DNA of 64,000 nt from Styela clava. Its lineage: Eukaryota; Chordata; Ascidiacea; Stolidobranchia; Styelidae. The notes under the pieces are model-generated. The model was given only the letters and a program-made list of their open reading frames with translations. It had not been told where the DNA came from and did not search any database. The translations under genes were made by a program, and so were the position numbers. Location of the stretch: positions 22,535,135-22,599,134 of the forward strand of contig NC_135255.1 of the NCBI RefSeq assembly GCF_964204865.1, in the 5' to 3' direction. Positions 3,473 through 62,930 of this stretch are shown here, one piece after another; the stretch's first letter is position 1, and each line of letters begins with the position of its first letter.

Positions 3473-3962
3473 CAGTGTTTCCCAACTTATGGGTTGCTAA
3501 CCAGAACCGGGTCGCCTGAAAAGTTATTTGGGCCTCTTGTTTTTTCAACAAGAGCTCAAAAATTATTAGATTTATTTTAATTAATTTTATTGTTTATTTG
3601 GCGTTGAAGTTTTGCTTAATAGTAATTGAATGTGTGGAAAATATCATAGCGTGAATACTTAGCAGCATCTATTTGCTTAAGAAAAGCCACGCTACGATTT
3701 CAAAAACTCGTTGATGGCAAACACGCGCAGCGCAGTTTTCCCACTTGGACGGTAATTTCTGAGAAAATTGATGTTATAAAAGAATGATCGTTTTATAATA
3801 GTCATTTAATTTTAGGCATAAAAGCACCCCATGCCGTTTAGTATTTGAGCATATCCTGGGTCGCAGGATTTTCCAAATTTTTTTTTAAAAAAAATTGTGT
3901 CGCTTGAAAGACAGAAAGACAAACATATCTGAGTCGCTTGAAAAAAAGATTGGTAAACGCTG
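3473..3962. mobile_element. Non-autonomous hAT-type element
   Basis: The left end CAGTGTTTCCCAACTTATGGG and the right end TTGGTAAACGCTG are imperfect inverted repeats of the common hAT type (CAGNG..CCCAAC). The body has a repeated GGGTCGC / GTCGCTTGAAA theme and no transposase frame. No clear 8-bp target duplication remains, which fits an old copy. Confidence 0.6.
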
Positions 3963-6135: not shown

Positions 6136-7101
6136 ATTAAGTTATCCGTGAAGACGAGGGATTGTTTGTCCAGAACGTACAAAATGAAAGGCCTTATGTT
6201 AAAATCTACCTGCATAGCCTTTTTACAATTTGGTAAAAAGAAACAAACGCCTTAAGCCAAAGCCTTAAGTTACCTAAGTCGGTTGTGATCATTTTGACAA
6301 GTCCTTGAGTCTCGTACCTCGGACTTTATTCAAACGACAGGTAAAAATGGTATATCGTTAACAAAGAGTAGCAATTGTTGAACTGTATGTGTAAGGCTTT
6401 TAACACACATGAGTACGGGGTGCAAGCAGGTCTATCAAGAAACGACAATGATACGTACATGTAAACTCAGATTTCGGGTGGACGTGAATAGGGCATTTCT
6501 CGCCCGGGCTATCTATGTATGGTAGTAGTGTTAATACTTGTAGTTTCTTGAGTTTGCGTTGCTTTTTTATATGTGCTAATATCAATATGTATATATATTT
6601 ACGCAATATATCTGTGATTAAAATGACCTATATAAAATATTACATTATAATGAGGTGATATCCAGGAGATGCTATTTTTTTACAAAAATAATTTATAAAA
6701 TGAACAAAGAACAGGAAAACACTTAATAACAATATATATTTCGCAAAAGTTACCAATACGAATATATTATTAACTAATTAGCATTTTGGGTGTAAAAGCG
6801 GCGAGCGCATGAGTTATCCCATTATATATATATAGTTTTTTTGTTTTCTGTACATTTCGCAGTGAGGAAGAATGAACGCACCGGTTTTCATCGTACGGCA
6901 ATGAGCATAAAGCACTACCTGATCCATACATTAGGTTTACGAGGCGCAAGATCGATTTTTGAGAAAAATTTATTTAAAGTGCGCTTGTCGGTCCGTAAAA
7001 TACAGTATTGCTTCTACTTGTGAAGTGAGCGTTCTATTTTTTGTTTTGAATATCACAATTGCATATTGTCTTACAAATAAAGTTCAGCGAAACTGAAGGA
7101 T
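6136..7101. other. Intergenic sequence, weak match to 19812-19960
   Basis: GGGATTGTTTGTCCAGAACG at about 6159 resembles AGAGATTGTTTGTTCAGAATG near 19823, and both are followed by a similar (A)CAATTTG(G/T)TAAAAA. This hints that the flank duplication once extended this far. The short open frames are not supported as genes. Confidence 0.35.
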
Positions 7102-7315: not shown

Positions 7316-7843
7316 TACAATTTGAAAATTTATTTAGAATACGTCAGTTATTCCGGAAAAGAGTATTTTCCTCAAGCATAGCTTGCTTTGTTGTTTTTCT
7401 GTGGGCGCAACGGGTGGGGATATGGATTCGTTGCTTGAGGCGATGTCTTTTTCGCTGTACATTGCTTGTTTACGCGGGGTATTGTTTGTCCCGGCGACAC
7501 CCTAAGAATCTACACGCGTGTTATAGTCCACATCGCGTCCTATGAAAGTGGAAAAATAAAGACGAGTATCACTGGACAACAAAAATAATAATTCCCAACA
7601 CAAAATTAATAAGCATTGTGTATTCCCAATTTTACCGCCCCTGTACGCCAAGTATCAGTATACTTTCGAAGAAATTAGGATATTACTTCTATCAAAATTG
7701 ATGCTTCCTTTAAATGCAGATTTAGCTTCACATTAAAATCGAACAAATATTGCTCTATTATTACACTTTAAATGTAAATGTTTGCCAGTAAACTCGAAGG
7801 AACAAAATAAATACCATCCCTGCCACCTCCCGAAATAAGTGGC
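7316..7843. other. Intergenic sequence, nothing recognised
   Basis: No open frame or repeat end could be supported between the MITE and the SINE. Confidence 0.3.
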
Positions 7844-8193
7844 GCGGCGGTGTGGCTCAACGGGCTAAGCGTTAGGAATACGCTCGCCACCGCACCTCTA
7901 GTCACTCTGCATGGGTTCGCAGGTTCGAATCCCATGCAGGGATGGTTATGTGCGAGAGGATTGCTGGACTCCTCGCCGTCGTTGGGTGGTTCACGTAACC
8001 GCTGGTCGGTTACGGCTTCCTCCACCACCAAGTCCATGCTTCCGAAAACAAACAATACAGTAAAAACTAATCCCATACCCGACTTGGAATGGTAACCGGA
8101 CGAGAGGCCGTGGTTCGCCATATAGATAAGCCGTATTATCGGCTTTCCTCTCCCCCGGGATAAATATGTAAATCCTATCCTATCCTATCCTAA
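7844..8193 (+). mobile_element. tRNA-derived SINE, full-length copy
   Basis: The 5' head is tRNA-like: an A-box-like TGGCTCAACGGGCTAAGCG and a perfect B box GGTTCGAATCC, followed by a conserved tRNA-unrelated body and a pentamer tail of ATCCT repeats. It matches 20677-21029 (+), 53291-53585 (-) and 62931-63270 (-), with fragments elsewhere. The B box suggests internal RNA polymerase III promotion. Open frames on both strands here are by-products of the GC-rich body. It is not called as a tRNA gene because the head continues into the SINE body and has no proper acceptor stem. Confidence 0.88.
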
Positions 8194-9215: not shown

Positions 9216-10404
9216 GAACTTACCTTTTATACAAAAGCGAGCTAATACTTTAGTACAAATATTTCATCATAAAGATCCCACATTTCCCTATATTTATTGC
9301 CTATGACGTCATAAATACGAATCATTCTCATGGCGGAGTTGCATAAAAAATCGTTGCCAGGTGTAATACCGAAGAATAGTGTGGTGGCGTTACTCATGAC
9401 GCATTCACATTAGTTAAAACTATTAAAAGTTTCACAGTCTCATTAACACTTTTCGAAATTTTTTATAGCTATTCAATGATGTTTTCTAAATATATATTAA
9501 AAACATTAGTGTCTTTTTTTAAATTTTATACTTATTCGATTTGGCAACTTAGTGTGGTCTTGTATTGAATATTTCTGAATGCAACACCGATGCCTGAATA
9601 CTTTCAATAAGATACCGATGACCTTCGTGACTGTGGCGGAGTTGCCGTTGTTGAGTTGCATATCGGTAACCTTGCCTCTTGTTTAAGTAAGAAAATTATC
9701 AAACTCATCCAATCGCAGTTACCATAATCTGAAGTACCGGTAGGTGTTATGTTCGGCATCCGGTACCGACAATCAGCAATCAATCGCGCAATAGAAAAAT
9801 ATACCGGTATGGTACGGTACCGTACTTAAGAAGCTCAGCGATTTAAAAAAAATCAAAGCTACTCAGTGTTCAGGTGTGGCAGTAGTCTAATACGCTGGGG
9901 TCATTCTGTACAATTAATGGTATAAAATGAAATATTGTAGGCAATTGAAGTAAAAAAAAATAAGTTTTATTCTTAATTTCTAAATTAACCCAGAAAATTG
10001 TTAAAAGTATGAACAAATGCCGGAATGCCAAAATTGATAATAAAAAACTCAGGGTTAATTAGGAACATACTACTGTATTAATGCCTGAGAAATGGTGGTA
10101 TGGATAAAATGAAATTTTGTAGCACAATCTTTGTCTATATATGAATTCCAAAGTCTGAAAGTAGCCTCCAGGTCGATAACTTACTCGAATAAAGTGTGGC
10201 TTCCGATATGTACATGAGCACTGACTTAGTCTTGCTTGTTCATCTCTTTTATATAGTATTTGGCATGTCTATCCTTTTATTTAATATATCTTTCATATGT
10301 TTATTGAATATTGGTCAAAAATATAATAGAAATGGTTTATATTCAAACAGGTGTTAAAACTTTATATTTAGTTACTGATTTGAGTAAGGTTGAGCTGACT
10401 GATC
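9216..10404. other. Upstream region of the BTB-DTC gene
   Basis: The region is AT-rich with several short palindromic CCGGTA/TACCGG pieces around 9735-9830. No core promoter element could be assigned. An in-frame TGA nine bases before the start codon at 10405 shows that the reading frame does not continue upstream within this exon. Confidence 0.35.
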
Positions 10405-13400
10405 ATGAATGAAGATTACATTAAACAAACAAATTCAACCCAAGCCGGTTTGCTTATAACATCACTCGATAGCTTGAGAGAACAAAACATTCTCTGCGAT
10501 TTTGATGTCAAAGTTGGTGACAAATCCTTTCGTGCTCATCGCTGTGTCTTGGCAGCCTCATCAGGATACTTTAAAGCCATGTTTACGAGCAAAATGAAGG
10601 AATCTCGTGATGGTTTTATTGATATGAAGGATGTCGATCACAATGGGATTTCCCAATGTATAGAGTTCATGTATAAAGGAGTAGGAAATTTGAAAATGGA
10701 GTACCTTCAACAAATCCTGCAAGCTTCCAACCTGTTACAAATGGTTAGTTTGACAAACTTTTGCTTCCATTACTTGAAAACCAATCTCTCTCAAACCAAT
10801 TGTCTTTCTGTCATCAACTTGGCTCAAGCGTACGATCGTCATGATATAAAAGAACAAGCAGAACAGGTTCTAATCACTAATTTTGAATCAGTAATTTCCT
10901 CTGAGATGTTCCCGTTCATTATCAAGCCAGATCTCCTTCGTTACATAAAAGTTTCAAATGTGAGTTATCAAACATCATGGCAAGCTATGATAACATGGGC
11001 AAGAGCAAAGGATGAAAATGCAGAGAGATGTTTTGCCGATCTTGTTACAGTCATCAATATTTGGACTTATCCTTTTAAATTTCTTCTGGAGACTGTGTTG
11101 GAAGAACCATTGGTGAAAAGTAATGACATTGCAAAGAATTCAGTCATCACTGCATTATTCTCTGATGTCAAGAATCTCGAGACAAATCTTGAGATTGACA
11201 ACTGCTTCATCCTGAAGAATATGGCTGAAACTCGTCAAGTCACAAACTCAAATCCAGTGAAAGATGTCATGAATCGATTTCTGGAAGCAAATTTCGAACT
11301 AATCATTGAGAAAAAAGAGTTCTGTGATATAAGCAAGGATGATATCATAAGGATTTACAAATCCCCAGAAACAAAATATTCTTCTGAGACTGTTAAGTGG
11401 CATGGAGCTCTTAGATGGATAAAGCATGATATTCAAAAAAGGAGAAAATATTTTCAAGAATTGTTCGGCCTTCTCAACCTCAGAAAATTGCCCCTGCAAT
11501 TTCTCAAACAAACCGTTCGCTCAGAAACTTTGGTCAAAGATTCTCGTAAATGTTACGATGTACTTTTTGATGAAATAATTTCTCGAGCCGACGAAAAGTT
11601 TCCAGATCAAGAAACTCAACAAGTGGTTGTCGCTACCCCAAGTGCCAGATCGCTTTCGAAAACTTCCTTGGGCAACACAGCTTCGAGTCGCCAAAGTTTT
11701 AAGAAGGCCCAAGAACCACAGATGGAAGCAGTGGGTGGATACGGGAGTGACACTTCAGGTACAATCTCTTGCATTTATGTTTCATAACTGAGATTACTGA
11801 AGTGAGCAGTGAGACCCAAATCACTATGGGTTATTCATGTCTAGTTACATTTGGCGAGGTGGTTAAAGCATTAGGCTCAACCATTACAATTTCAGATTAC
11901 CTTTCCCTCTCTTTGGTTGGTTGGTCCCCCCACCTCAGACCTCACCCGGGGTGTAATAGATTGAGTAGGCAATGCCGCTTCTACAAATAATAGTACCATG
12001 CATACATATCTGATTTCAGCCTAGAATTGTCACGAGGGCTTATAATAAATGATGGGACTTATATGATATGGGATATATGTAATATTACAATATGCAATAT
12101 ATCTTTTTATTTGACGTATTATTAGAATCCTGTCCGATGGTAACTCTTACAAATCCCATTATCTAAAATAATTCTGCAATTTACAGGATCTCAGTCTTCA
12201 AGTCGAGCTACTTCATCTGGTCTAAGAATCATCAACCAACAACCACCTGGTGGAAGAATGACAGTGGAAAGGTTGGATGAATCACTGCCAGGATATGAAG
12301 GGTGGAACACTTCTGCCATCTCCTACTCATTCCCTGCTGGAAGTCTGAATGTGAGTCATGTAATGAATTAAGTTGGTTGAGTAATAAATTATTTACTGGA
12401 ACCAGGAATTCTTGTTGTATTAATTTACATTGATTTACAAACCTGTGGCCTGCTAAGGAATTTTGTGCGGCCTGCGAATCATCTGAAGTTTTCCTTGAAA
12501 CTGTCGCCACAATTAGGCATGTCACTTTTTCGCCGGATAATGATTTTGCAGTTGCGCAAAGTATTCAATTGACGACCAATTAAAGTTTATATATAATGTC
12601 TTGCTTTATTGATTTAATTGTGTGTTCAATGTGACCTGCGGTTGCGTCGAGAAAATAAGAATATTGCTACAAAATATCACGGCAATCCATGGCCATAAAA
12701 AGTGATTCAACTGCCCGATTTATTTAGTTTTCAATCATAGTTTTGCGAATTATACTAATTAGATGTATTCTTCACTTTATCACCATGCTTCCACCCAAGA
12801 TAATTTTCAAGACGTCAGAAAAATCTCTATATTTGCGATAAAATATCAAAGACTACAATTCATAAGTACAGTGAATTACAAAATTGATTGTACAGTATTA
12901 CTTCGATTACTTGCTGCAGTTTTCAAACGACAGTTCATATCTCCCACACCCGGTCGATTGAGGTGACGTCACACGAAACTGAACTCAATCGATACTATAC
13001 AAGTCAAAACTAACAATCAAATTTTTATATGCGGTTGAGTTTCGTCAGTTCGTCCTGATAAAAAACGCTTAATAAAGAAAAAGATCCCCATTTCACTAAG
13101 CAAAACATGCATTGAATGTTCTATTTTTATTTTATGTTGCAATATAACATCAAATAACTTCGGCAGTATGGATGCAGTTGTTCATATTTGTTGATGAAAA
13201 TTAATTATCAGGTATTATCAGAGTATGACTAAAAAGTTGTTAAATTTACAAATCTTGCTTATGCCACTTGGCTCTCTTGTGGTATTTTTCAATGTATTTC
13301 AAACAAGTTTTAGTCTTCACTAGGCCGTCCAAAATCGAATATTTTTTTCGATTCAAAACGAATCAAATACTTTTCTCGAATCGAACCGAATATTATTGCG

Positions 13401-16317
13401 CAATCCTAAAATTGTCGCTATTGTACAATAAAAACTCCCTCTTTGATATTGTGATAACTTATGTGCAGTTATATCTAAATTATTGCTATTATTTTGCATA
13501 ACTATGTTTCCAGAGTTATAAAAGGAGATCACAAGCCTTCTTGAACTGGTCAGAAAATTAGGGTTTCGAAAACTATCAAGTGTTATTAAGAGTTGGAAAT
13601 TGCACAGAATCTTTTAATGGATTCAGTTTCAATAGGGCATGCAAACCCCGTAGTTGCTATTTTAACCCTATTATCATTAGTATTATTAACTCAGGATTTT
13701 GTGTAATTTTCAGTAAAATGATAAACAACTAATAATATAGTTATAACTAAAATTCAAAATTGCCTTTCGAGAACTCACAAATTCAGAGCTAGTTTGATGA
13801 CATTATTAGTTGATGACCATATTGTTGCTGTACAACAGCCATCAACATGCAAGAGTATTGCCACTATAAGAAATTACAAATTCTATTGGAAAAAGGTATT
13901 AGACCTCCAAAACGTGTTTCAGTCCTGTACCATGTTCCTATGACTGACTCAACAGCTACAAACCGATTCGGCAACCGATGCTAAATTTGCCTTTTTCTCC
14001 TTGTGTTCTCTCAAAAAACCTCATCTTTAAATCTTTGTTACCGATAACTTTTCATATATGATCATGCATGAAATGGATCATTACATGTCATCGGGCAATA
14101 GAAGAGACCTTTTTACAGCAAAGAAAGCGATAGAAATGTGTTTTTGCTTGCCCAGTGAAAAATACAGTGCAAAAGGTGGCCGTGAGGCTTATTATATTCG
14201 TGAATTGGCCGAAAAACGCTTCGAATAATTTGCGATTCGATCGATTTCGAATATTCCGTTTGCTTGGACAGCCCTAGTCTTCACATATGCCTCAGTGTTC
14301 TTGCCAGTTTTAACAACTTATCAGTGATGGAAGTTGAATAACTCATTATGCTTATTTTTGCAGGGTGTTTCATATGAGACGAAAGAATTTACTGAATATT
14401 TGTCTGCATCCTGGTACCTTGAAGAGTTGCTCCAGAAAGCATTCAATGCAGGATTGCTCTTCAAGATTCAGATAACTGAAAGCAATGGAGGAGAAATAAT
14501 ATGGAATAATGAAATTTCTCATAAGACTAACAAACATGGAGGCCCAAATAAGTAAGTTGTTTAGTTGAATAATCTAAAATCTGTAAATTCTTACATGGAT
14601 TGTCTGGAGCCTCAAGTAAATTATCTCAAGTAAGGATGTAATGAAAATTCAGTTCGCACAAATTTGAGATTCAAGATTTTTGGAAAATGTGGATTGCAAA
14701 AATTAAGATCAACCTAAGCAATTTATTTTCCAAACTGACCTCTGATGCAAGGTTAGAAAAATGGACTTTAACATGAAAAGTCCTGATTTGTGTAGAAAAA
14801 TGGACTTTAACATGAAAAGTCCTGATTTGTGTAGAAAAATTGACTTTAACATGAAAAGTCCTGATTTGTGTCAAGGACTGTTTCGCAAACTCTTATATAT
14901 TAATCAAAGAAAGGCATCTTTGGTTTGCAATTTTGATCCCATAACTTTCCAATCAGCTTGTAGAATTGGTAATTACTTGACACAGATATCATGCCCAAGG
15001 TTAAATCAGGTATTACATTCTTATCATTCATTTCTGATTCGATGATCTGGGAGCGTTCTTTCTATTTCTGATAAATATTGTCCAAGATTTGTTATGATGT
15101 TGCCAAAATATTGGGGTGGTATGCCTTCATTTTTTACAACATCAATATCCAATTAGTAACAACTAATTTTTTTGCTTTTTTTGTTAACATTTCATTGAGC
15201 ATCCAACTTCATAAAGAATTATGTTTTCACTGCTTATTCCTAAAATGCATTTTGCTGTGAACAAGGCCCTGTACAAGCTGTCACTGAGATCTACCATGAT
15301 TTAAGGATGTCTAACAAGCAATGTCTAATGTATTAACTAGGCCAGGGCTACTCAACTATTTTCACCGAAGGTCCGACACAAAATTCAAAAATTACCGGGG
15401 TCTGGTCATTCCAAAAAATATATCTTGACTATGCAAACAAAATTTCAAATGCATCGCTTGAGTGAGAGTGGCTATAACATTTTGTAACATCGGGTACGGG
15501 TTAATGATCTTCTAATTTCAAATTTTGAAAATACAACCTGACAAATATCATGCAAAGCCACAAAAACACACTAATGTTTACCACCATGTCCAAAAATATG
15601 TAAAAAATGTATCCAAACACCCGATAAAACTGAGTTTTTATGCCACTATTCACATCTTGCTGATTAGCCAATGTTATATTGGAGCAAACAAGAGAGTAGA
15701 TGATCTGAGAAACGTATGTGGCCATGACAATTTCTACCTCAGCAGTTTAGCGAAAAATGCATTTCGATTATTAATCAAAATTCTAAATAAAACAACGCAT
15801 TCGAAGTCAAGAAGCAGCCGTGGTCCAAATTTAATACTCGAACGGTCTGGATTCAGGCCGCGGTCCACCAGTTTAGTAGCTCTGAACTAGGCTATCAACG
15901 CTCAATCAATTCTTATTCTATATTGTATTCTGGCAAAGATTTCCTCAGCACCTTGGATTGAGTGTTGGGGTTAAGTTAGTATCCTAAAAAAACAATTATT
16001 CGAAAATTTATCTCTACCTACAAGTAAAGCTGACAATTTTTTCACACATAAAAACCTTACATTTACTGGTAAATCTTATTCATACGGACATTGCTAACTT
16101 AAGAATTCATTAGTACTGAGGAGTCAAATATTTGTGACTTTGGGAGTTCAATTATTGAACATCAGATTTTTTACAACTGAATAAAAATCAGACTCATATG
16201 CAACTACCATCATGCATTCTAATCTATTTCAGCAATGGATATCCTGATCAAGTCCATACCAAAAGGCTTCGTAAAGCATTGAAGGCAAAATTAAAGGCAG
16301 AAGGAATCAGATTCTAA
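10405..16317 (+). CDS. BTB-BACK-BACK protein with Deltex C-terminal (DTC) domain, RING-less
   Basis: There are four coding exons: 10405-11758, 12187-12350, 14364-14551 and 16233-16317. All joins keep frame and give 596 residues. Residues ~22-130 form a BTB fold with AMFTSKMKES; M64-K65-E66 is the phi-x-E motif that KLHL-type BTB domains use to bind cullin-3. Residues ~150-255 and ~286-395 are two BACK domains. Residues 400-460 are a polar, Ser-rich linker. Residues ~465-596 are a DTC domain: NQQPPGGRMTVERL, SLPGYEGW, ISYSFPAG, WNNEISHKT, GGPN and GYPD. In Deltex proteins the DTC binds ADP-ribose/NAD and works beside a RING; no RING or Kelch repeats occur here. An in-frame stop lies just before the ATG. 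Intron 2 holds a 956-bp hAT and intron 3 a tandem repeat. The likely role, a CUL3 adaptor recognising ADP-ribosylated targets, is inference. Confidence 0.88.
11850..11993 (+). mobile_element. Second tRNA-like SINE family, copy in BTB-DTC intron 1
   Basis: The head GGCGAGGTGGTTAAAGCATT is tRNA-like. The 3' part, TAGATTGAGTAGGCAATGCCGC, matches TAAATTGGGTAGGCAATGCCGC at 53227-53248. It is short and diverged. It differs from the ATCCT-tailed SINE. Confidence 0.5.
13321..14276. mobile_element. Non-autonomous hAT-type element in BTB-DTC intron 2
   Basis: The termini TAGGCCGTCCAAA and TTTGCTTGGACAGCCCTA are inverted, with a perfect 8-bp target duplication GTCTTCAC at 13313-13320 and 14277-14284. 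Subterminal TCGAATATT / AATATTCCG and repeated TTCGA(A/T)T motifs flank the ends. It is 956 bp with no transposase frame and ends about 87 bp before exon 3. Confidence 0.9.
14754..14870 (+). repeat. Three tandem 39-bp units with internal hairpin, intron 3
   Basis: Three almost identical 39-bp units lie in intron 3 of the BTB-DTC gene. Units 1 and 2 contain GGACTTT..AAAGTCC, a 7-bp inverted repeat around a 7-base loop; unit 3 has a base change in the left arm. Because 39 is divisible by three, the array makes open frames on both strands (for example 14761-15045), which are not considered genes. Confidence 0.95.
15343..15884. mobile_element. Non-autonomous hAT element (family C) in BTB-DTC intron 3
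   Basis: The left end is CAGGGCTACTCAACTATTTTC and the right end CCACCAGTTTAGTAGCTCTG, with a perfect target duplication AACTAGGC at 15335-15342 and 15885-15892. It is the same family as 29055-29348: the shared CGAAGGTCCG, CCGGGGTC and CGGTCTGGATTC..GCGGTCC segments appear there in inverse order. The 121-codon frame inside has no recognisable domain. Confidence 0.9.
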
Positions 16318-30157: not shown

Positions 30158-32563
30158 CAGGGGTCGGGAACCTTTATTGTCAAGAGAGCCATAAAACGAA
30201 TATATTTTCAATTTTATTTCTGTGCGAGCCATAAAACGAATTTGTACTCAAAAGTCAAAACATACAATGTCCCAATATACAATTAATGTGACTTCTGATG
30301 CTGCATGTTGTCACTGAGGGTCTTGAAGTCTGGTTGATAATTGGTGAGGTTAAGTTTCATACATGCGTTGAGGCTTTCATCTGTTAAAAGAGATCGCTGG
30401 TTTGTCTTAATGTTTTTCAAGTGTGAGAACGACTGCTCACATGCATATGTGGATCCAAACATGGTCAATACAGCAATACACACTCTTTTCAGTGTGCGGT
30501 AAGTGGCAGGAAGCGCGTTCTAAGTTTTGACAATCAACTGGTCTGCGGGTTGAAGTTTTTTCATTTCTGTCCATTTATGGTTGATCGCGAGCTCCGCTTG
30601 TTGTCGTTTAAGTGTTTCCAAATTTTCATTTAGTGATTTGAACTTGTTGACCCATACGTCTGAAACCTTCAGGTCAGCAACTTCTAACTCAAAATTTTTG
30701 ATGCAGACACCAGGAATGCAACTCAAGTCGACGTCGTTTACAGCACACTCATATGGATGAGTGATGAACTTAAAAAGACTAATGCTCTCACGAAATTCTG
30801 CAAATCGCGCTTTGAATGACTGCAGGAGATTACATGTGAAGCCAACTAGCTGCTGGAGATCGAAATCATGAGTGGGATTATTTGCAGTGATTATATCTTT
30901 GAAGTTTTTCAGCCTTTCGAAATGTAACAGACGACCCGTTCCAAGATCCTCAATAAATAAATCCAGCCTTTTTTCAAATGCAAACAAAGTTTGTTGAAGG
31001 GATGGGATTGTATTTCCAATTCCTTGCATTTTCACATTGAGCTGATTAAGATGTTCAGTCATGTCCACGAGATAATAAAACTTCCGGAGCCAGTCAGGAT
31101 TGGTTAACTCAGGATGCGTAACGTTTTTCATCTCAAGAAAAGTTCGGATTTTATTTAAACATTCTGCAAAACGGTTGAGCACCTTCCCTCTTGACAACCA
31201 ACGCACATTGCTGTGCAAAAGCAAGCCGGGATAATTGTTTCCAACTTCAGCCATCAGTGATTTAAACTGGCGATCATTTAAAGCTCGGGCAACAATAAAA
31301 TTACCACCGAAGTGACCACATCCATTACGTCGCTAAACTGCTTGCCACACAATTGAGCACAAAGCGCTTCCTGATGTAGAATGCAGTGGAAACTTGGGAT
31401 GGGTGTTTTTTCATATTTACGAAGAAGCGCTACAAACCCTTTGTTTTTCTCCATCATACAAGGTGCTCCGTCAGTGCACACTGAAACAAGATTATCAATC
31501 GGCAGCTTTTTTTCCGTTGCGAACTCCATGAAAGACCGAAATAAATCTTCTCCTCGTGTTGTTCCTTTCAGTGGCAAAACAGCACGACTTTCTTCACGCA
31601 GTGTGTCACCCACAACATACCTTGCAATTACACTGAACTGTGATAAATGGCTTACGTCCGTAGACTCATCAAAAGCAAGAGAAAATAATTCCGCTGTATT
31701 TATATCCTTTAATTGTATTTCCTCCCCTTCATTTGCCATCATGATAGCGCGATCGTGAACAGTACGTGCTGACAGAGGCACGTCTTTAATTCTTTTTATT
31801 ATTGTATCTTTATTTGACAAGTCCTCAAAAAGTTCATTGGCCACATCAAGCATGAATATTTTGGCATACTCGCCATCTGTAAACGGCTTTCCGTTCTTCA
31901 CTATTGCTAAAGAGGCAGCAAAGCTAGCCGAATTACAGTTACCTTTCTGAGACCATGCTCGAAGTTGCTGCTGACTCGCTTTCACTTGGCATAGTAGTTC
32001 TAAGCATGCCCTCTTCCTGATGTCTCCCTCTGGATATTTAGATGCGAAGGATGTGTGAAAATGTCTCTTTACATTCGACCGTTTCATCGACGCGATTTGA
32101 GCATTGCATATTAGACAAACTAAATGATCTTTTCTCTCCACAAAGGCAAATTTCTCTGTCCATTCAATCTGAAAACCCGATACTCATCATCTTTCTTTCT
32201 GTTGGCCATATCTGTAGTGCTTTAAAAATTAGTTTTGCTAATCCAGTCTCAATATTAAAGTTACAAATGAGGAGTGTACAATAGGACGGAAGGCTTCGTT
32301 GCTCCGCGATTCTATCACTTCGTGATGTCTCAAAGTTCCAGAATCCTCTGTTTTGTCACAATGCTTGTCTGTCAATTCTCTCACAAAACATAGACATGCG
32401 CTGAGCGCGTTGGCGAATTTTCTGCCATACCTGGCCATAAAATAGTCTGAAATCTGGTAACAATACTAAAATTAACCTTTGAATATTGGATTTTCACTGG
32501 GAGCCATATGCGGTCACCAAAAGAGCCATATATGGCTCGCGAGCCATAGGTTCCCGACCCCTG
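30158..32563 (-). mobile_element. Autonomous-type hAT transposon, 2.4 kb, inactivated
   Basis: The termini CAGGGGTCGGGAACCT and AGGTTCCCGACCCCTG are perfect 16-bp inverted repeats. The flanks share GTCTAC (30152-30157 and 32564-32569); comparison with the empty paralogous site at about 22655-22672 shows that 6 bp were duplicated, or 8 bp with later change. Subterminal AGAGCCATA.. repeats lie at both ends. It carries one transposase gene, now broken. Confidence 0.92.
30283..32209 (-). pseudogene. hAT transposase (BED zinc finger, GTF2IRD2/ZBED-like type), disabled
   Basis: The frame starts at an ATG at 32209-32207 (MANRKKDDEY). The N-terminus holds a BED-like finger (VCLICNAQIASMKRSNVKRHF), followed by the RNase-H-like hAT core (AFDESTDVSHLSQFSV, CTDGAPCM, HCILHQEALCAQ) and, near the C-terminus, the dimerisation region (GSTYACEQSFSHLKNIKTNQRS). 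Three lesions are visible: a frameshift around 32170, just after the first ~13 codons; a second frameshift near 31300, where the frame passes into a short out-of-frame end; and a TAG in place of an expected Trp codon at about 30520. The rest aligns well with the family, so it was probably active until fairly recently. No intact copy is in the window, so it may be mobilised, if at all, only in trans. Confidence 0.9.
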
Positions 32564-38345: not shown

Positions 38346-41300
38346 ATGGACGGAAAATCCAAAAAGGTAATTCCGTTTTCTATAAATCATTTACGCACCG
38401 GAGCTTTCGATTTTTCAATGATTTCAGCCCGTCAATTGGAGACTGCAAATGCAGTCGTCGTACAGTAAAATACAGGTTGTTATTATGACCATGCCTTGTT
38501 TTGAACATCCACCTACAGTAAAGTATATGATTCACTTATTTTTAATGAGGCTGTTAAGACAACCATGAGTAAGGAGAATTTCAGTGTAGTTTGCTAAGAA
38601 CCCTTTGCGATTTGTTTATACGATAAAAAATCTATATATTCAAAATATTCTAGTTTATATGTACTTTTTCATTTTATGAATTACATATATAGTCCAATTA
38701 TTGTTTCACTTAATTTCCTTTTTTTTTGCCTGCGAATTACAAAACGCTATTGTTGATTTTGCATCATAGATTTAGGAGCGCAAATCAATACACGAATGAA
38801 TTCACGATCTTATAAACTGACTTCAAATGTAGCATGCCCCCACTAATCAGTATAAATTACTTAGGTGTCATATCTCGATTGATTTCAAATTGATAAGCAG
38901 TACGCAGTTATGTTAAAAGCGACATGGTTTATCATGCAGGTCGAATGAAAGCTCGTCGCCACCTATGTTCAAAACTTCAAATGGTCAGCTATGTCCTATT
39001 GTGCGTTAACAAAGGTTTATCAATGATTAAAAAAAGGTGTGAAAATTGCTGTGATTTGATGATTAATGAATTTATTCATTCATTTGTAATGGTTTAACCA
39101 GGGCTTGATATTTCATATATTGACTCATAACAATTGTATAAAGATGACTCACAACCTGTATATACGACATTACTATAATCCATATACTCCATGTTTTAAC
39201 ATTATCCTGGTAACCACAAGACAGATAATTGGATGCACTTATTATTATACTTATTATACACATGACCAATAAGCAAAAATATTATGCACATGAGCAGGAA
39301 ACGACAAGGTACAAGTTAACAGTGCCGAGTTTCGTGGGAGGCGTTGAAGACAAAAACAAGCATTTTATAAACAAATTGAATAGTTTGTTGATAAAGAAAT
39401 TTTATTCACCCACTGTCACGCGATGTAAGTGGTGCTACGTCACAAACACGGCTGGGTGATAATAAATTAAAAAGGCCTTCAAAATTGTCGAGGTTGGGTA
39501 GGGACCCTCCCACGTGAGCTCACCAATAAACACTCAGTTTTCGGATACGTGATATTCGGCACGTAGTCGCATGTCATATGTTCGACTCTATTTGTATTGT
39601 CTCGCCACATCACATTAATTCGAAATAATCACAATTAGTAAACGATACTACTAAAGTTTCTGTTTGACAATGACGATGAATTTCAACTTTTAACCTTTTT
39701 TGCGGTTGCGCGAAGGCGTCACCTTTGCATATACTATATCGAATGTATATGGCGCTTCACATTTCACTCTGAACAAGGCTCTAGACAGCGGTTATGAAAA
39801 CGCAGATTTCGGACCGAACCTTTTCCGATGGCGAATGGTAAACATCTAAATTATCACACCCTCGAGTGAAAAGGTCGACATGAAAGGGCGGCACACGACC
39901 AAACGTAGCATGATTTATACAAGCTTTGTCGGTAATACTGGGTTCGATCATGACTCTAGTCACTCTTACCCTGTTTACTCATTGGGGCTATTTGCTACTG
40001 TTAAAAAACATTAAAATATTGTTTTTCGTTGGATCATATTACCTTCAAAAATATCATTGACAATAACTTTTCATTTCAGAAAACTGCTTACAGAGAAGAT
40101 CTTCAAGATACGTCAGGACTGACGGATCTTATATTTTCAGTTGACGAGGAAGTCGGTGCTTTAGCCAGAGCATTGAAGATATTCGAGGTAATTTATTGTT
40201 TTTTAAGTGGCTAAATATTGATATGCGATTATTGGACACGAAATTGGCATGTGGTCGTTTTGTTATTATGTTGTTCTTGTTAGAATTTTTATTCTTCTTA
40301 TAATTATGAAAAAAATTGCTTTTCTTATTTACTAATGAACCAATTGCCTTGAAATTTTCAGTGATTGAAGATTGCATTTTTTGCTGGCTATTGCTTTAAT
40401 GATATTTCATCTAAAATGCTGTTCAAATTTAATTATGGGAACACGCTTCTATGGCATCGTGGCGACTGTCTTCCATGTTCAATGACATCGTGACGACTGG
40501 TACCAGTAGTCTGCTCTGACATATATATACCCGCGTACTGTACCAAGGCGTTCTGGGCTTCGTGTTCATATATTTGAGCACAGCTAAGAATATATATTAA
40601 ACCTATTGTTTATTTTCACAGAGCAAAGGGGTCAATCTGACGCATATCGAATCCCGTCCATCGCATAACAATAAACATAAGTACGAGTTCTTCGTGACAT
40701 GTCAAAACACAAATGGTCACGTGACTGATGTCGCAACGATGTTGAAAGAGGGCATGAACGCTAACGTTCTACAGTTATCACGCGATAAAAAAGTAAAAGA
40801 CGCAAGTAAGTTAAATATTAGTGATATTCTGCGTGTATAAATATTTTTAACGTCAGACTGGCGACGGTGGTAAATACAACAATGCATTACGGGTAATTAA
40901 ATTCGATGTGCGGTGGAGCGCAGGTGGGCATAAGTTGCGCGTTTTCATAATAAATGCACCAAAAATCAACAAATCGAGATAAGTGTGACATAAGTGGAAA
41001 CATGAGTTGCTATAATTCCAGTATGTGTTGAACAACGCGTGGCAAAGGTAACAATTTCGTAATATAATAACACTTCTGTCTGAAAATGTCTATGCAATGA
41101 AAGACATAACACTTCGTAACAAATTGGGTTCTTTTTCTCTGCTAAGCAAAATTAAAATTATCACTTTTGCTCCATGCATGTACGTTGACAGGTTGAAAAT
41201 CGGGGCAAATTTAGTGGTATTTGCAATGTCATGAACAAAATGTGACCAAATCTCAAGAAATTTTCAATTAGAATGATTTCGCCAATTAGTACAGAATAAG

Positions 41301-58393: not shown

Positions 58394-61300
58394 CTACAGT
58401 CCAACTCTTGCTAGAATGTCTAATTCAGTCTTATTTAACTGCTGACCAAAGTACTGTTTGTGCGCTGAACTGTTACAGAATTGTCTAAAATAGTCCAGTA
58501 GATATTGCCGCAATTCTAAAGAATTTAACGGATCAGCGAGCACGTCGGGGTCATCCTCGTCTCCTTCAAGATCTTCTGCGGTGAATCCATCGTTCACGGA
58601 ATCCAATAATTCTGATAAAGTCACTCTGGAGTTACCAGCATCGCCATTGCCAAGCTCATCGATCTCGAAGGCATCTGAATGAAAAACATAAGTGACAGCA
58701 TAAGTGACATAAAAAATAATTCAAGGTATCATGACTGTATCTTTTAAGGAGATTTCTCAACTCGAAAGTCATGCGCACTCACTTCAAAACAGTGGTTCTC
58801 AAACTTTTTTATTTTATTTTTATTTTTAATTAGCTTGTCTACATCCCACCCCCCTTGTGGGGCGCACCCCACCGTTTGAGAACCACTGCTCTACAAGGAA
58901 CAGTTTGAGGATTGACAATGAGTCTATCACATATTGTAGTCTGACCTAGGCAATTATTCGAAGCCAGTAAACACAGATTTTTTAACAAAGCAAGTCCACG
59001 CACACATATATGAAAAAAGAGAAAAAATTCTTTTATGACTGAAATTACAGTTGGTCACTGGAGTGCCAAGCGCTACTGAAACTATAAAAAATTATGGTGA
59101 TGCATGATGCTCACAAAATACTCAATCCCTAGGTAGCGCTAGACAAAAATTTACTATCAAATACCTTCGTCATCTTCATCCTCCCATCCATCATCATCAT
59201 TCCCGTTTCCAACTCCCGTCTCTGTAGCTTCTCCAAGATCTATTGCATGACCTAACTCGGCAATAAGAATTTTTAATAATTTCAATGGCAGAGGTATAGA
59301 CGTCCATTTTTCTGGTTCTTTTTTAGCTCGAGATCTCGTCCTAACTGTTGGGGTGTCAGTGAATATTTGATCTCCTTTAACCATAATTTCATTCATGCGA
59401 GTGTCATTCGTCGCTACTACGTGTTTGAAAAGTTCTGCTAAAGCTAAAATGCAAACTTTTGTGTCATAATGTCCGTAGAAAAGATTCTGTTTATCGCACC
59501 ATTCAGTCATTACAAACTCAAGAGCTGTATTGCCTTTCGGGCCTGGAACTTTCGATAAAAACTCGAGTGTCGGAACAAGTTCATGCTTGAATAAATACGC
59601 AAAAATTATTAATAATGACTGCGTAACAGTAAGGGTTTTTGCTTGCTGAAGTTTACTGAGAACGGCACGAAGTAGCTGGTCTAGAACTTCTTGTAACTGT
59701 GACCCACATTCTCGTATCATGACTCCGACCAAACGACCAACAAATGCAGCAGAATGTTCAGATAGCTGAGGATCTAAGAGATGAGAAGCGACACGCAAAA
59801 CGTAATGCCAGCCTGAGATGCCTTCTTGGTCTGTCCAGGAGATAACTTGACTCGGTGAGCGAGAAACAAAAGCTCTAATGCAGTCACCGCCATTTTGAAT
59901 CACAGAATTATCATCCGAACTTGTAACAGAATTCACAACTACTGGAAACAAATTTTTAACAAGTAAATCTGAAAATGGGGGATCCGTGTTACGAATGATA
60001 ACAGTTAATAATTCCAGTGATATCCCGACCAAATTTGCTGATATTTTAGCCGGCGGTCCGGTGAAAATATTCGCCAATGCGGGTGCGATGTGATCCACGA
60101 GGCTGCCGTTACATTTCTTATTGGCCGAGAGAACTTCAAGGACATCAGAACACAAAGACACGATAAATGGATCATTATTGTGACGTAAAAATTGATTGAA
60201 AGTTAGTGACGTAATTTGGGGCTCGTATTTAGCCGTAACATCATCATTAACTTTGAGAACAATTCCGATAGCTTCTAAAACTAGAGCTAAAGTTTCAACA
60301 CTCGCTTGCATTGCAAGTTGGACTAATCCTTCCAAGAGGCTTGCACAATAGGGACTGAGTTTCTCTGTTTGGCCAATCTGCTCCAAATGATCGCAATAAT
60401 TGCAAGCGGCTCGGACTGCTGAAATCCTAATAGATGGGGGTTGGTTGTCTTTTAACCCATGGACTGTGTATTCAAGAAATTGAGTTAGCATATCTGGTTG
60501 CAGCATACAAGTAAATCGGCTTGCAACCCATATAGCACGTCCTACAAGGAAAGGGAACTCAGAAGCTTTTATACTGGGCAGCACGATGCTAGTAATAAAT
60601 AAATTGACATCAAAATTTGCATTTCCTGCCTCAATTGTTCGTGACACAAGAGATTCCACAGATCCCAATGCAAGCATTAATGCCTCGTAAGATTTCCACC
60701 AGCAAGGATGACTCGAAATTCGAGCTTCGTTAGCGAGACGTACATGACGATCCACAGCTTTTATCAAATTTATTGCACTCTCGCTTTGAAACTCTCTACA
60801 GCAGGTAAGAAACAAATCTTGAGCAGAAATACGGACGCTGTATGAAAACGTTTCATCATCTTCGTCTTGAACAAATTGGTCAGGGTTTTCAGACCAAATA
60901 GAAATCTGTTCTTCTGTAACTTGCATGTATAATATTAAATGATAGATTAAATCTTCGAGAGATTGCTTTACAATTCCACGACAAGACTTCAATTCTAACA
61001 TACATTCGATGAATTCAAACGTACAGTATACTAAGCTTTCAAAACCTGTTCCTTCACCGTCCGAGTCCACAGCATCGTCATGGCCTTCTACAGACATTAC
61101 TTCCTTTTTCACATACATTTCAGCACAATTTGTGAATGTCCCCCACACAGCAGGCAATATTTCTGCTATCACATGTTTTATCTCCTTTTCAAAGCCACGA
61201 AGCAAAATCGTGAGAGTTTTCATCACTTCTTTCTTTAATCCTGGATCAGAAACCTCACTGTTAGAGATCTTGAGGACTTTTACATAAGCTTGTAAAAAGT

Positions 61301-61985
61301 TTGGCAGAAATTGACTAACGTTAACACGTAGTGGGTCCTTAGCATTTCCAATTTCACTTGCAAACGAGGCGCATGTGTTAAAAATTGAAACCGCACGACT
61401 TCGTACTCTTATGTTGTATAAATCAGTCTCTGTAAATATTTTATAAATTTGTGGCAATAAAACTGGGACAACTGAATTCATATGAGTGTCTGTTACGTCT
61501 CGGATAAATTCAGTCAGAACCCGCATCGCACCATGCACTGCATTAGGGTCTTGTGAGGTTAAAGCTTGCATTAATGATTCGAATAATCCAGGCCAGTTCT
61601 CAGGCCAATCCCAACCAGCAATAGCAGAAATAGCATATGCAATTGACGTCCTGATTTTCCTCTGCGGATCAGCAAGTCCAATTGGCAACATCTGTCGAAT
61701 TGCAATCTTTGCGTTTTCACTTGCTTCCGGCGGAGAAAATTTCTCAGAAATAGAACTCCAATGAGTGTCGACATATTGTTTCAATATAAGCGACGCTAAC
61801 TGTCGTAATGACAAATCAAAGCTTTGATCGACTGTTATTTTCGCAAGATGAACGCAAAAATCTTCTGTTACTTCTAATATTTTGATTTCCTGTTCCGCGG
61901 CTCGACGAATATTAGGATCAGGGTTCATTGTTGCTGACAACGTCGATAAGATTTGTTCCGCCATGTTTTTATCGGACTGTGCCAT
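58394..61985 (-). CDS. IPO9: Importin-9
   Basis: A nuclear import receptor of the importin-beta family; known cargoes include H2A-H2B dimers, ribosomal proteins and actin, and Ran-GTP binding regulates release. Two exons on the minus strand, 61985-59165 and 58674-58394, join in frame to 1033 residues (human 1041). Residues ~25-105 are the importin-beta N-terminal Ran-binding domain (AAEQEIKILEVTEDF, LRQLASLILKQYVDTHW), followed by a HEAT-repeat solenoid with the characteristic AISAIAGWDWPENWPGLF. An acidic loop (GHDDAVDSDGEGTGFE) lies mid-protein, and an acidic stretch (DDDGWEDEDDEG..FEIDE) near the C-terminus spans the splice junction. The C-terminus DPLNSLELRQYLLDYFRQF matches the family. 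The ATG at 61985 fits the known N-terminus. A 2.8-kb uninterrupted exon is unusual for this gene. The single intron contains a miniature hAT. Confidence 0.96.
58790..58888. mobile_element. Miniature hAT-like element in the IPO9 intron
   Basis: CAGTGGTTCTCAAACTTTTT and CCGTTTGAGAACCACTG are 15-bp near-perfect inverted ends around a 65-bp core. Flanks CTTCAAAA and CTCTACAA match at only 5 of 8. It is related to 51293-51587. Confidence 0.8.
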
Positions 61986-62930
61986 GATGAAGATATATCG
62001 AATTCAGAAGAATTGAGACACATATATACAGTGTTATACTAATATATATAAATTGATTTTCATTTAGCACCTATAACATTGCTTTCTAAAAAATAATTGT
62101 AAGAATTATATTCTAGTAATTAGTAACCAAGCTCTGAAGTTCCAAAGTCATCAAGCTAATACTGGTACCGGTAGCAGGGTGGCATCAAAATATTTTTTCA
62201 TCTCCGAGGGGTGTTTAGAGGGTGGTTATAGCGCTTTTATTCTGGACCACACTCTTATTACGGTACTTGGTATTATACACAAATGCCTATCGTATAACTG
62301 TATAATAAATACTGAAATGCTGAAGTTTCATCATTTGGAAATATTACAAAGAAAATGCTGATAATTTCTAATCATAGTTTAAAGCAATATCTGGCTTTTA
62401 CAAATTTGGCTTTCTGGCTTTTACAAATTTGGTGTTTTTGGTTTAACCGGGAAGTTGGACTGAGTGAATGCAAGTGCTGAGGTGACATCTGAACTCATTA
62501 ATTAGACTCAAGATTTATACGAACTCTGACTCGAAATGGCGACTGGAGTGTTTATGAACTTGTAGTCTACTGTCTGACTGTCATTACAAACCATTAACAA
62601 CTGCTATTACCGGTACCGAATGTACAGAATGTAAGGCTGTAAGGGGCGCAAGCCCGCAGTGCTACCGGCAGACCGGCTGGACCGGTATAAGTAATGCAGT
62701 TACAGAGTTAAGCTTAAGATAACGAACGTCCCATCCTGTCACATATTGTTTAAGATGCTAACTAATTGCTCGAGTCACAGGATAAAAACGCACTCGAAGG
62801 CAACTGTTATGCTGAAAATCAATTCATAAATCCATATCAAACTCCCTAAAATCAGCGTTAACGACGACCGCGAGAATGGCGCGAATATGTAGTGGTGTTT
62901 CATTTACCATTCCTGAGGTCAGAGGTTAAA
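61986..62930. other. Upstream region of IPO9, no other gene seen
   Basis: Immediately upstream of the IPO9 ATG the sequence is A/T-rich with TATATA runs (about 62020-62050), which cannot be separated from background. Several ACCGG(T)A pieces occur at about 62163, 62610 and 62670-62700. Confidence 0.35.

Follow-up and report, generated by a model that had tools for sequence, protein, structure and literature searches.

Adaptors of BTB-BACK architecture include the KLHL proteins, of which KLHL3 binds CUL3 through a phi-x-E motif in its BTB domain together with the 3-box, and both KLHL3 and KLHL11 are known in CUL3 complexes (PMC3616122, in the excerpts available). The DTC domain is described from the Deltex E3 ligases. 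In DTX2, His582 and Glu608 are the catalytic pair for ubiquitylation of ADP-ribose and His594 contacts ADP-ribose (PMC7615817, PMC11460948), a ligand also contacted by His582 (PMC7615817), while the DTX3L equivalents are His707, Tyr719 and Glu733, placing a tyrosine where DTX2 has His594 (PMC11460948). On nucleic acids neither the RING nor the DTC of DTX3L is sufficient alone, both being needed (PMC11460948), and the available parts of the published work describe this reaction as proceeding only in cis. A third point of comparison is provided by expanded families of nematode ligase adaptors. In C. elegans, genes for adaptors of the F-box and MATH types carry positively selected sites in the substrate-binding domain, and infection by virus and microsporidia induces them (excerpts of PMC5392922 and PMC4063957); PMC5392922 cites Thomas 2006 for positive selection in the substrate-binding domains of expanded adaptor families, and its available text states that induction by the virus of C. 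briggsae was absent for the orthologs in that species.

The gene described here joins a BTB-BACK-BACK part to a C-terminal DTC domain. No description of a BTB-BACK-DTC architecture was found in searches confined to open-licence literature.

Architecture of the window gene

The gene lies on the forward strand of the window (the whole 64-kb stretch of Styela clava DNA that was analysed) and was spliced in silico from exons at 10405-11758, 12187-12350, 14364-14551 and 16233-16317, whose GT..AG joins agree in phase and give a coding sequence of 1791 bases, i.e. 596 residues and a stop, bearing out the four-exon gene with consistent phases proposed in the first-pass annotation. The open frame of exon 1 starts at 10399, with an in-frame stop just 5' of the ATG at 10405, and the exon 1 donor is weak (cag/gtacaa). 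Exon 1 encodes the BTB domain, two BACK stretches and the start of a linker, ending in phase 1; exon 2 the end of the linker and the N-terminal part of the DTC, ending in phase 0; exon 3 the middle part of the DTC, ending in phase 2; and exon 4 the end of the DTC and the stop. These boundaries were set by splicing, with the open frame for exon 1, Pfam for exons 1 and 2, and paralogues for exons 2 and 3. By eye, intron 3 shows a repeat unit of about 40 bases that occurs three times head to tail (window ~14760-14875).

Profile searches gave the domain order that had been read from the translation, with all three families over their curated cut-offs: a BTB domain (PF00651, residues 21-127, 10465-10785, 4.7e-26), two BACK stretches (PF07707), of which the second is the better (residues 280-371, 11242-11517, 4.9e-23) and the first lies between it and the BTB, and a DTC (PF18102, residues 470-588, 9.9e-18, 65 bits against a cut-off of 25). 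The BTB-BACK-BACK-DTC architecture is confirmed as real. The candidate phi-x-E motif, annotated as MKE at residues 64-66, is present as M64-K65-E66 (10594-10602), a motif of the kind set out in the excerpts of PMC3616122. Among PDB sequences the BTB-BACK parts of KLHL3 and KLHL11 rank first against exon 1, and DTX3L (6.6e-15), followed by DTX2 and DTX1, against the DTC. Residues 11-164 of the query align with 31-184 of the KLHL3 chain, thus covering the 3-box, which the available text of PMC3616122 places at 150-176. No Kelch family was found in the window protein up to an E value of 1, and Rfam and tRNA scans gave no matches and no genes, respectively. An AlphaFold model of exon 1 alone had a mean pLDDT of 40.1 and was set aside.

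The DTC had been described as RING-less, and this held. The Pfam scan found no RING in the window protein, and a full RING pattern had no match in six frames of the 64-kb window. A half-RING pattern, run because a Deltex RING can be intron-split, found nothing near the gene; its one match in the window is on the minus strand, at 40985. Applied to three Deltex loci of this genome, the half pattern picks up the RING exon of L022 and L023 and misses that of L024. The possibility that the DTC exons form a transcript of their own, complete with a RING exon, was rejected, neither pattern having found such an exon; it is also disfavoured by the lack of a methionine in exon 2 before the first strand of the domain, and by the many recurrences of the same exon order.

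A large family arranged partly in tandem

In the genome from which the window comes (G000, 376.6 Mb in 379 contigs), BTB-BACK-BACK-DTC proteins form a large family, encoded partly in tandem, of which this gene is one member. With window exon 1 as query the best 93 of 399 candidates were listed. Long BTB-BACK-BACK copies, judged by identity and length, number at least about 54, with lower bounds of 16 on contig C6 at 21.8-22.5 Mb, 31 on C5, 3 on C19 and one on C1. More distant long copies lie on C9, on C6 at 18.7 Mb and on C8, and the remaining exon 1 matches are, from their open frames, fragments or Kelch-like genes with longer frames. The window gene is the last of the C6 tandem array. Window exon 3 gave at least 89 matches, among them 27 full ones in the C6 array and 49 on C5; the DTC profile gave at least 52, the window's own exon 3 being absent among the matches listed. 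A scan of the genome contig collection with the whole protein (19 pattern matches) and one of viral contigs with the DTC alignment (42 pattern matches) found no relatives.

Within the C5 and C6 arrays, a DTC exon comes next after 48 of the 51 BTB exons, and 48 of 78 DTC exons stand directly after a BTB exon of the same strand at a median distance of 4.3 kb. In this count one C6 exon 3 represented by two halves is taken once, four partial C5 BTB exons are included, and one pair, 77 kb apart, is too widely spaced for a likely gene. The other 30 DTC exons lack a BTB exon immediately before them. Translated searches of 20 loci found a BTB exon upstream of the DTC exons in L009, L014, L016, L019, L020, L021, L025 and L027; when eight loci were extended upstream by 3.5 kb one appeared in L010, L015 and L017, and none in L011, L012, L013, L018 or L028, that of L018 lying just beyond. 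Six spliced C5 genes have phases 1, 0 and 2 as in the window gene (two with a partial exon 1), and the two C5 proteins scanned with Pfam, L009 and L016, contain a BTB, two BACK stretches and a DTC. Among 15 C6 copies, in which exons were sought at guessed positions, exon 2 was seen in five, in one of them incompletely, and a fragment of exon 3 in two. It is this comparison that best supports the fusion, since paralogous BTB-BACK-BACK exons are often found 5' of paralogous DTC exons with splice phases alike where checked, and the conserved exon order, phases and Pfam domains of the paralogues are strong evidence that it is real.

Several further observations were made along these loci. L013 holds, at 3601 and 6498 of its joined stretch, two exon-2-like stretches with different variable segments, in a DTC unit with no nearby BTB exon. 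At L021 (G000:C6:18.69 Mb) the BTB-BACK-BACK frame seems by eye to continue, uninterrupted by an intron, into a degenerate N-terminal part of a DTC. On the minus strand of the window a single open frame of 948 codons (59160-62003) matches the importin-beta N-terminal and importin-9 central HEAT families of Pfam, indicating an importin-9-like gene with one long coding exon, and two overlapping open frames at 30523-32183 look like a broken transposase-derived gene, one of them matching the Spin-doc zinc finger below cut-off and the other nothing in Pfam. The translated stretch DLVVEEAVTDQRLREPPNDGEESSNPLAHNHPCMGFEPA occurs nearly unchanged at window 7771-8184 (minus strand) and in L026 at 6291-6518, and is probably a dispersed repeat. 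The GH6 family, known among animals from tunicates, has one match in the genome (C9:16.18 Mb, 1.5e-6).

Replaced residues in the DTC domain and its diversifying selection in the C5 array

In an alignment that reproduces the published DTX2 and DTX3L numbering, the window DTC retains the framework motifs SLPGYE, HKT and GYPD, but the places of His582, His594 and Glu608 of DTX2 are held by Ser558 (14517-14519), Asn570 (16234-16236) and Ala584 (16276-16278), respectively. The His582 equivalent is absent from all 37 C5 exons, which have proline or serine instead; from 29 further copies (27 of the C6 array including the window gene, one from C1 and one from C10), which have proline, leucine or serine, one row missed by the pattern reading PHKT; and from six more distant copies (L019, L020, L021, L025, L026 and L027). 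Asparagine and alanine occupy the other two places in six spliced C5 proteins and likewise in exon 4 of five C5 loci (L011, L012, L013, L018 and L028). The second histidine of HHKT is retained in most copies read.

The Deltex loci of the same genome read HHKT in L022 and L024 and PHKT in L023; their RING exons are supported by Pfam in L022 and L023 and were recognised by eye in L024. The catalytic histidine is thus gone also from a RING-bearing Deltex gene, L023 (G000:C1:11.08 Mb), which may stand near the source of the BTB-BACK-BACK-DTC family.

In the C5 array, exons 2 and 3 consist of a constant framework broken by variable segments. Three of these can be placed on the window protein: RMTVERLD (residues 475-482, 12255-12278, exon 2 columns 11-18), GWNTS (residues 490-494, 12300-12314, exon 2 columns 26-31) and ASWYLEE (residues 521-527, 14406-14426, exon 3), each varying among the C5 copies and the last, in the C6 array, also by length. 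Pooled pairwise dN/dS among 29 C5 genes is 3.23 for exon 2, with dN above dS in 401 of 406 pairs, and 1.52 for exon 3 (302 of 406); this set omits the window gene, L019, L026 and L027 as lying outside C5 or divergent, and copies lacking a usable exon 2. A set of 37 genes, from which L020, L021 and L025 are additionally omitted, gave 1.26 for exon 3 (448 of 666 pairs). For exon 1 the value is 0.29, with dN above dS in none of six pairs, from the four C5 copies for which all of exon 1 was retrieved; the same four genes have 1.92 for exon 2 (6/6) and 1.25 for exon 3 (5/6).

As pairs are not independent, intron divergence, site models and sister pairs were used as three further tests. Among 11 C5 genes the mean divergence of intron 2 is 0.070, which is exceeded by the dN of whole exon 2 (0.197, larger in 53 of 55 pairs) and of whole exon 3 (0.099, 51 of 55); whole-exon values are relied on here because the variable columns had been picked after viewing the variability. 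Model M2a is preferred over M1a with 2dlnL of 127.3 for exon 2 (taken with the better M1a optimum, a poorer one giving 143.3) and 119.5 for exon 3, both from 11 genes, and of 0.6 for exon 1 from four genes, in our own implementation run on the intron tree without null simulation. Sites with a posterior above 0.95 are columns 11-18, 26, 27, 29 and 31 of exon 2 and columns 14, 17, 20, 21, 23 and 27 of exon 3. In four independent sister pairs pN exceeds the intron value of 0.051 both in exon 2 (0.162, P 4e-15) and in exon 3 (0.091, P 4e-5); measured against synonymous sites the excess is significant in exon 2 (P 0.002) and not in exon 3 (P 0.10). Copies that the intron tree does not pair as sisters, e.g. 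L014 and L015, share some of their variable motifs, which suggests that segments are exchanged between C5 copies. Such exchange violates the single-tree assumption of the site models and leaves the intron comparison unaffected. The DTC exons of the C5 array are under strong diversifying selection, and the BTB-BACK part is conserved.

The window gene's own C6 array varies at the same places, by length and by replacement, and selection for difference was found only in C5. In 29 copies of C6 exon 3, a set that counts the two copies from C1 and C10 with 27 of C6, a variable segment of 6 to 18 residues lies between fixed flanks. No excess of dN over dS was found in exon 3 of this set: dN/dS is 0.42 for the framework and 0.45 for the whole exon, with dN above dS in 4 of 114 pairs, and in the variable segment itself pN (0.316) is below pS (0.441) over 114 same-length pairs, dN exceeding dS in 30. 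For exon 2, five C6 genes give a pN of 0.107 and a pS of 0.098. In one pair, L094 and L095, the intron flanks are identical over 202 bases and exon 2 differs by 7.7 nonsynonymous and 1.3 synonymous changes. A reader under positive selection joined to a docking part under purifying selection is found in the C5 array, the C6 reader exons being without dN above dS.

Mechanism, alternatives and related systems

Taken as a whole, these data are best explained, and with reasonable probability, by CUL3 adaptors in which an inactivated DTC has turned into a surface for recognition that, in C5, varies between copies. Docking on CUL3-RBX1 would be by the BTB and first BACK, as in the KLHL proteins, and the C-terminal DTC, having neither a RING partner nor the ADP-ribose-contacting and catalytic residues, would recognise proteins in place of Kelch. 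In C5, the driving apart of three DTC segments between copies would yield a set of adaptors with differing targets, plausibly foreign or fast-changing, and the window gene's C6 array may serve the same purpose. Binding of CUL3 by the window protein is plausible by analogy, from the phi-x-E motif and the region aligned to the KLHL3 3-box, and a role in recognition or defence is likely, judging by the nematode parallel. The first-pass view that the DTC replaces Kelch is supported as regards position, a RING-less DTC being found where a BTB-BACK protein would usually carry Kelch, and is not supported as regards the reading of ADP-ribose, the key residues for which are replaced.

That annotation had gone further, proposing a DTC that binds ADP-ribose and works with an E2 brought in trans by CUL3-RBX1, with ubiquitin going to ADP-ribosylated targets or to ADP-ribose as such. 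The domain is indeed recognisable as a DTC, with SLPGYE, HKT and GYPD in place, but the equivalents of all three DTX2 residues are replaced and that of His582 is missing from every copy read; moreover, in the published DTX3L work as far as it is available, nucleic acids are modified only with RING and DTC together, in cis, which also disfavours an E2 given in trans. On these grounds we reject this proposal as highly improbable. A milder form, in which the DTC merely binds ADP-ribosylated proteins or nucleic-acid ends through other residues and delivers them to CUL3 without catalysis, gains from the tyrosine that DTX3L has at the place of DTX2 His594, indicating that one contact may vary (excerpts of PMC11460948), and from the retention of the second histidine of HHKT in most copies. 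We nevertheless hold it to be decidedly unlikely, given that the ligand-contacting His582 described in the available text on DTX2 is proline, serine or leucine in the copies read, and that fast-changing segments would fit protein targets better than a single invariant ligand. Many BTB proteins are not known to bind CUL3, and the BTB might accordingly serve here for oligomerisation only, making the proteins scaffolds or multimeric binders independent of CUL3. L009, in which lysine replaces the glutamate of phi-x-E, would suit such a role, but that glutamate is retained in nine of the ten members read, and the best solved matches, KLHL3 and KLHL11, are known with CUL3 in the excerpts of the structural literature, leaving this an unlikely reading.

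Decay of a repeat family, in which most copies would be pseudogenes and their variability a relaxation of constraint, would account for stops in 3 of 54 long exon-1 copies, for the frame break in the BTB exon of L019 and the stop in exon 3 of L021, for the stops included in 12 of the 52 DTC profile matches listed, and for the many DTC exons without a BTB exon. It is very improbable as a general account: exon 1 is under purifying selection in the four C5 genes compared, a dN above intron divergence, as seen in C5, is impossible under relaxed constraint, none of the 89 exon-3 matches listed contains a stop, and in the six of the 12 stop-bearing matches that were read (L019, L026, L027, L043, L085 and L087) exon 3 is open. 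The orphan units argue the same way. Of the 37 C5 units retrieved, 24 stand immediately behind a BTB exon; the other 13 lack one there and contain no stop in exon 3 (13 read) or exon 2 (eight found) against 6.0 expected if neutral at the intron rate, an outcome reached in 0 of 400 neutral simulations, in a test that is weaker if loss of the BTB exon was recent and in which finding exon 2 by similarity favours intact copies. Where read, exon 2 of the orphans does not differ from the others in acceptor or phase. It is conceivable, though rather unlikely, that the arrays are reader-cassette loci, in which a constant BTB-BACK-BACK exon would be spliced alternatively to several downstream hypervariable DTC cassettes, so that a Deltex domain devoid of catalysis would underlie a repertoire of ubiquitin-ligase adaptors for recognition inside the cell, perhaps in immunity or in telling self from non-self. 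In Drosophila lola and mod(mdg4), one shared BTB-coding part precedes several 3' exons that are used alternatively, and the exon order of the C5 and C6 arrays would allow a similar use, the readers being zinc fingers there and DTC domains here.

If the preferred reading, of CUL3 adaptors bearing a disarmed DTC, is correct, a Deltex domain would have been recruited as the reader of an expanded cullin-ligase adaptor family, to stand beside MATH-BTB and F-box. The DTC would then be usable without ADP-ribose chemistry, which bears on the annotation of RING-less DTC proteins elsewhere. The arrays offer a ready test system, with dozens of copies and defined variable segments, in which targets are predicted to differ and CUL3 binding to be constant.

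With the Deltex E3 ligases DTX3L, DTX2 and DTX1 the window protein has the DTC in common, identical to that of DTX3L at 52 of 125 aligned residues and lacking a six-residue segment (EEHPNP of DTX3L), and it differs from them in that no RING was found and the His582, His594 and Glu608 equivalents are replaced. Adaptors of the KLHL/KBTBD type, such as KLHL3 and KLHL11, share its BTB with phi-x-E, the adjoining BACK and the C-terminal position of the reader, whereas the window protein has a second BACK stretch and a DTC instead of the Kelch propeller. The nematode MATH-BTB and F-box families are, in the excerpts of the work describing them, likewise expanded adaptors with positive selection in the substrate-binding domain; here, in another animal group, the reader is a DTC, docking would be by BTB-BACK-BACK, and the selection is found in the C5 array only.
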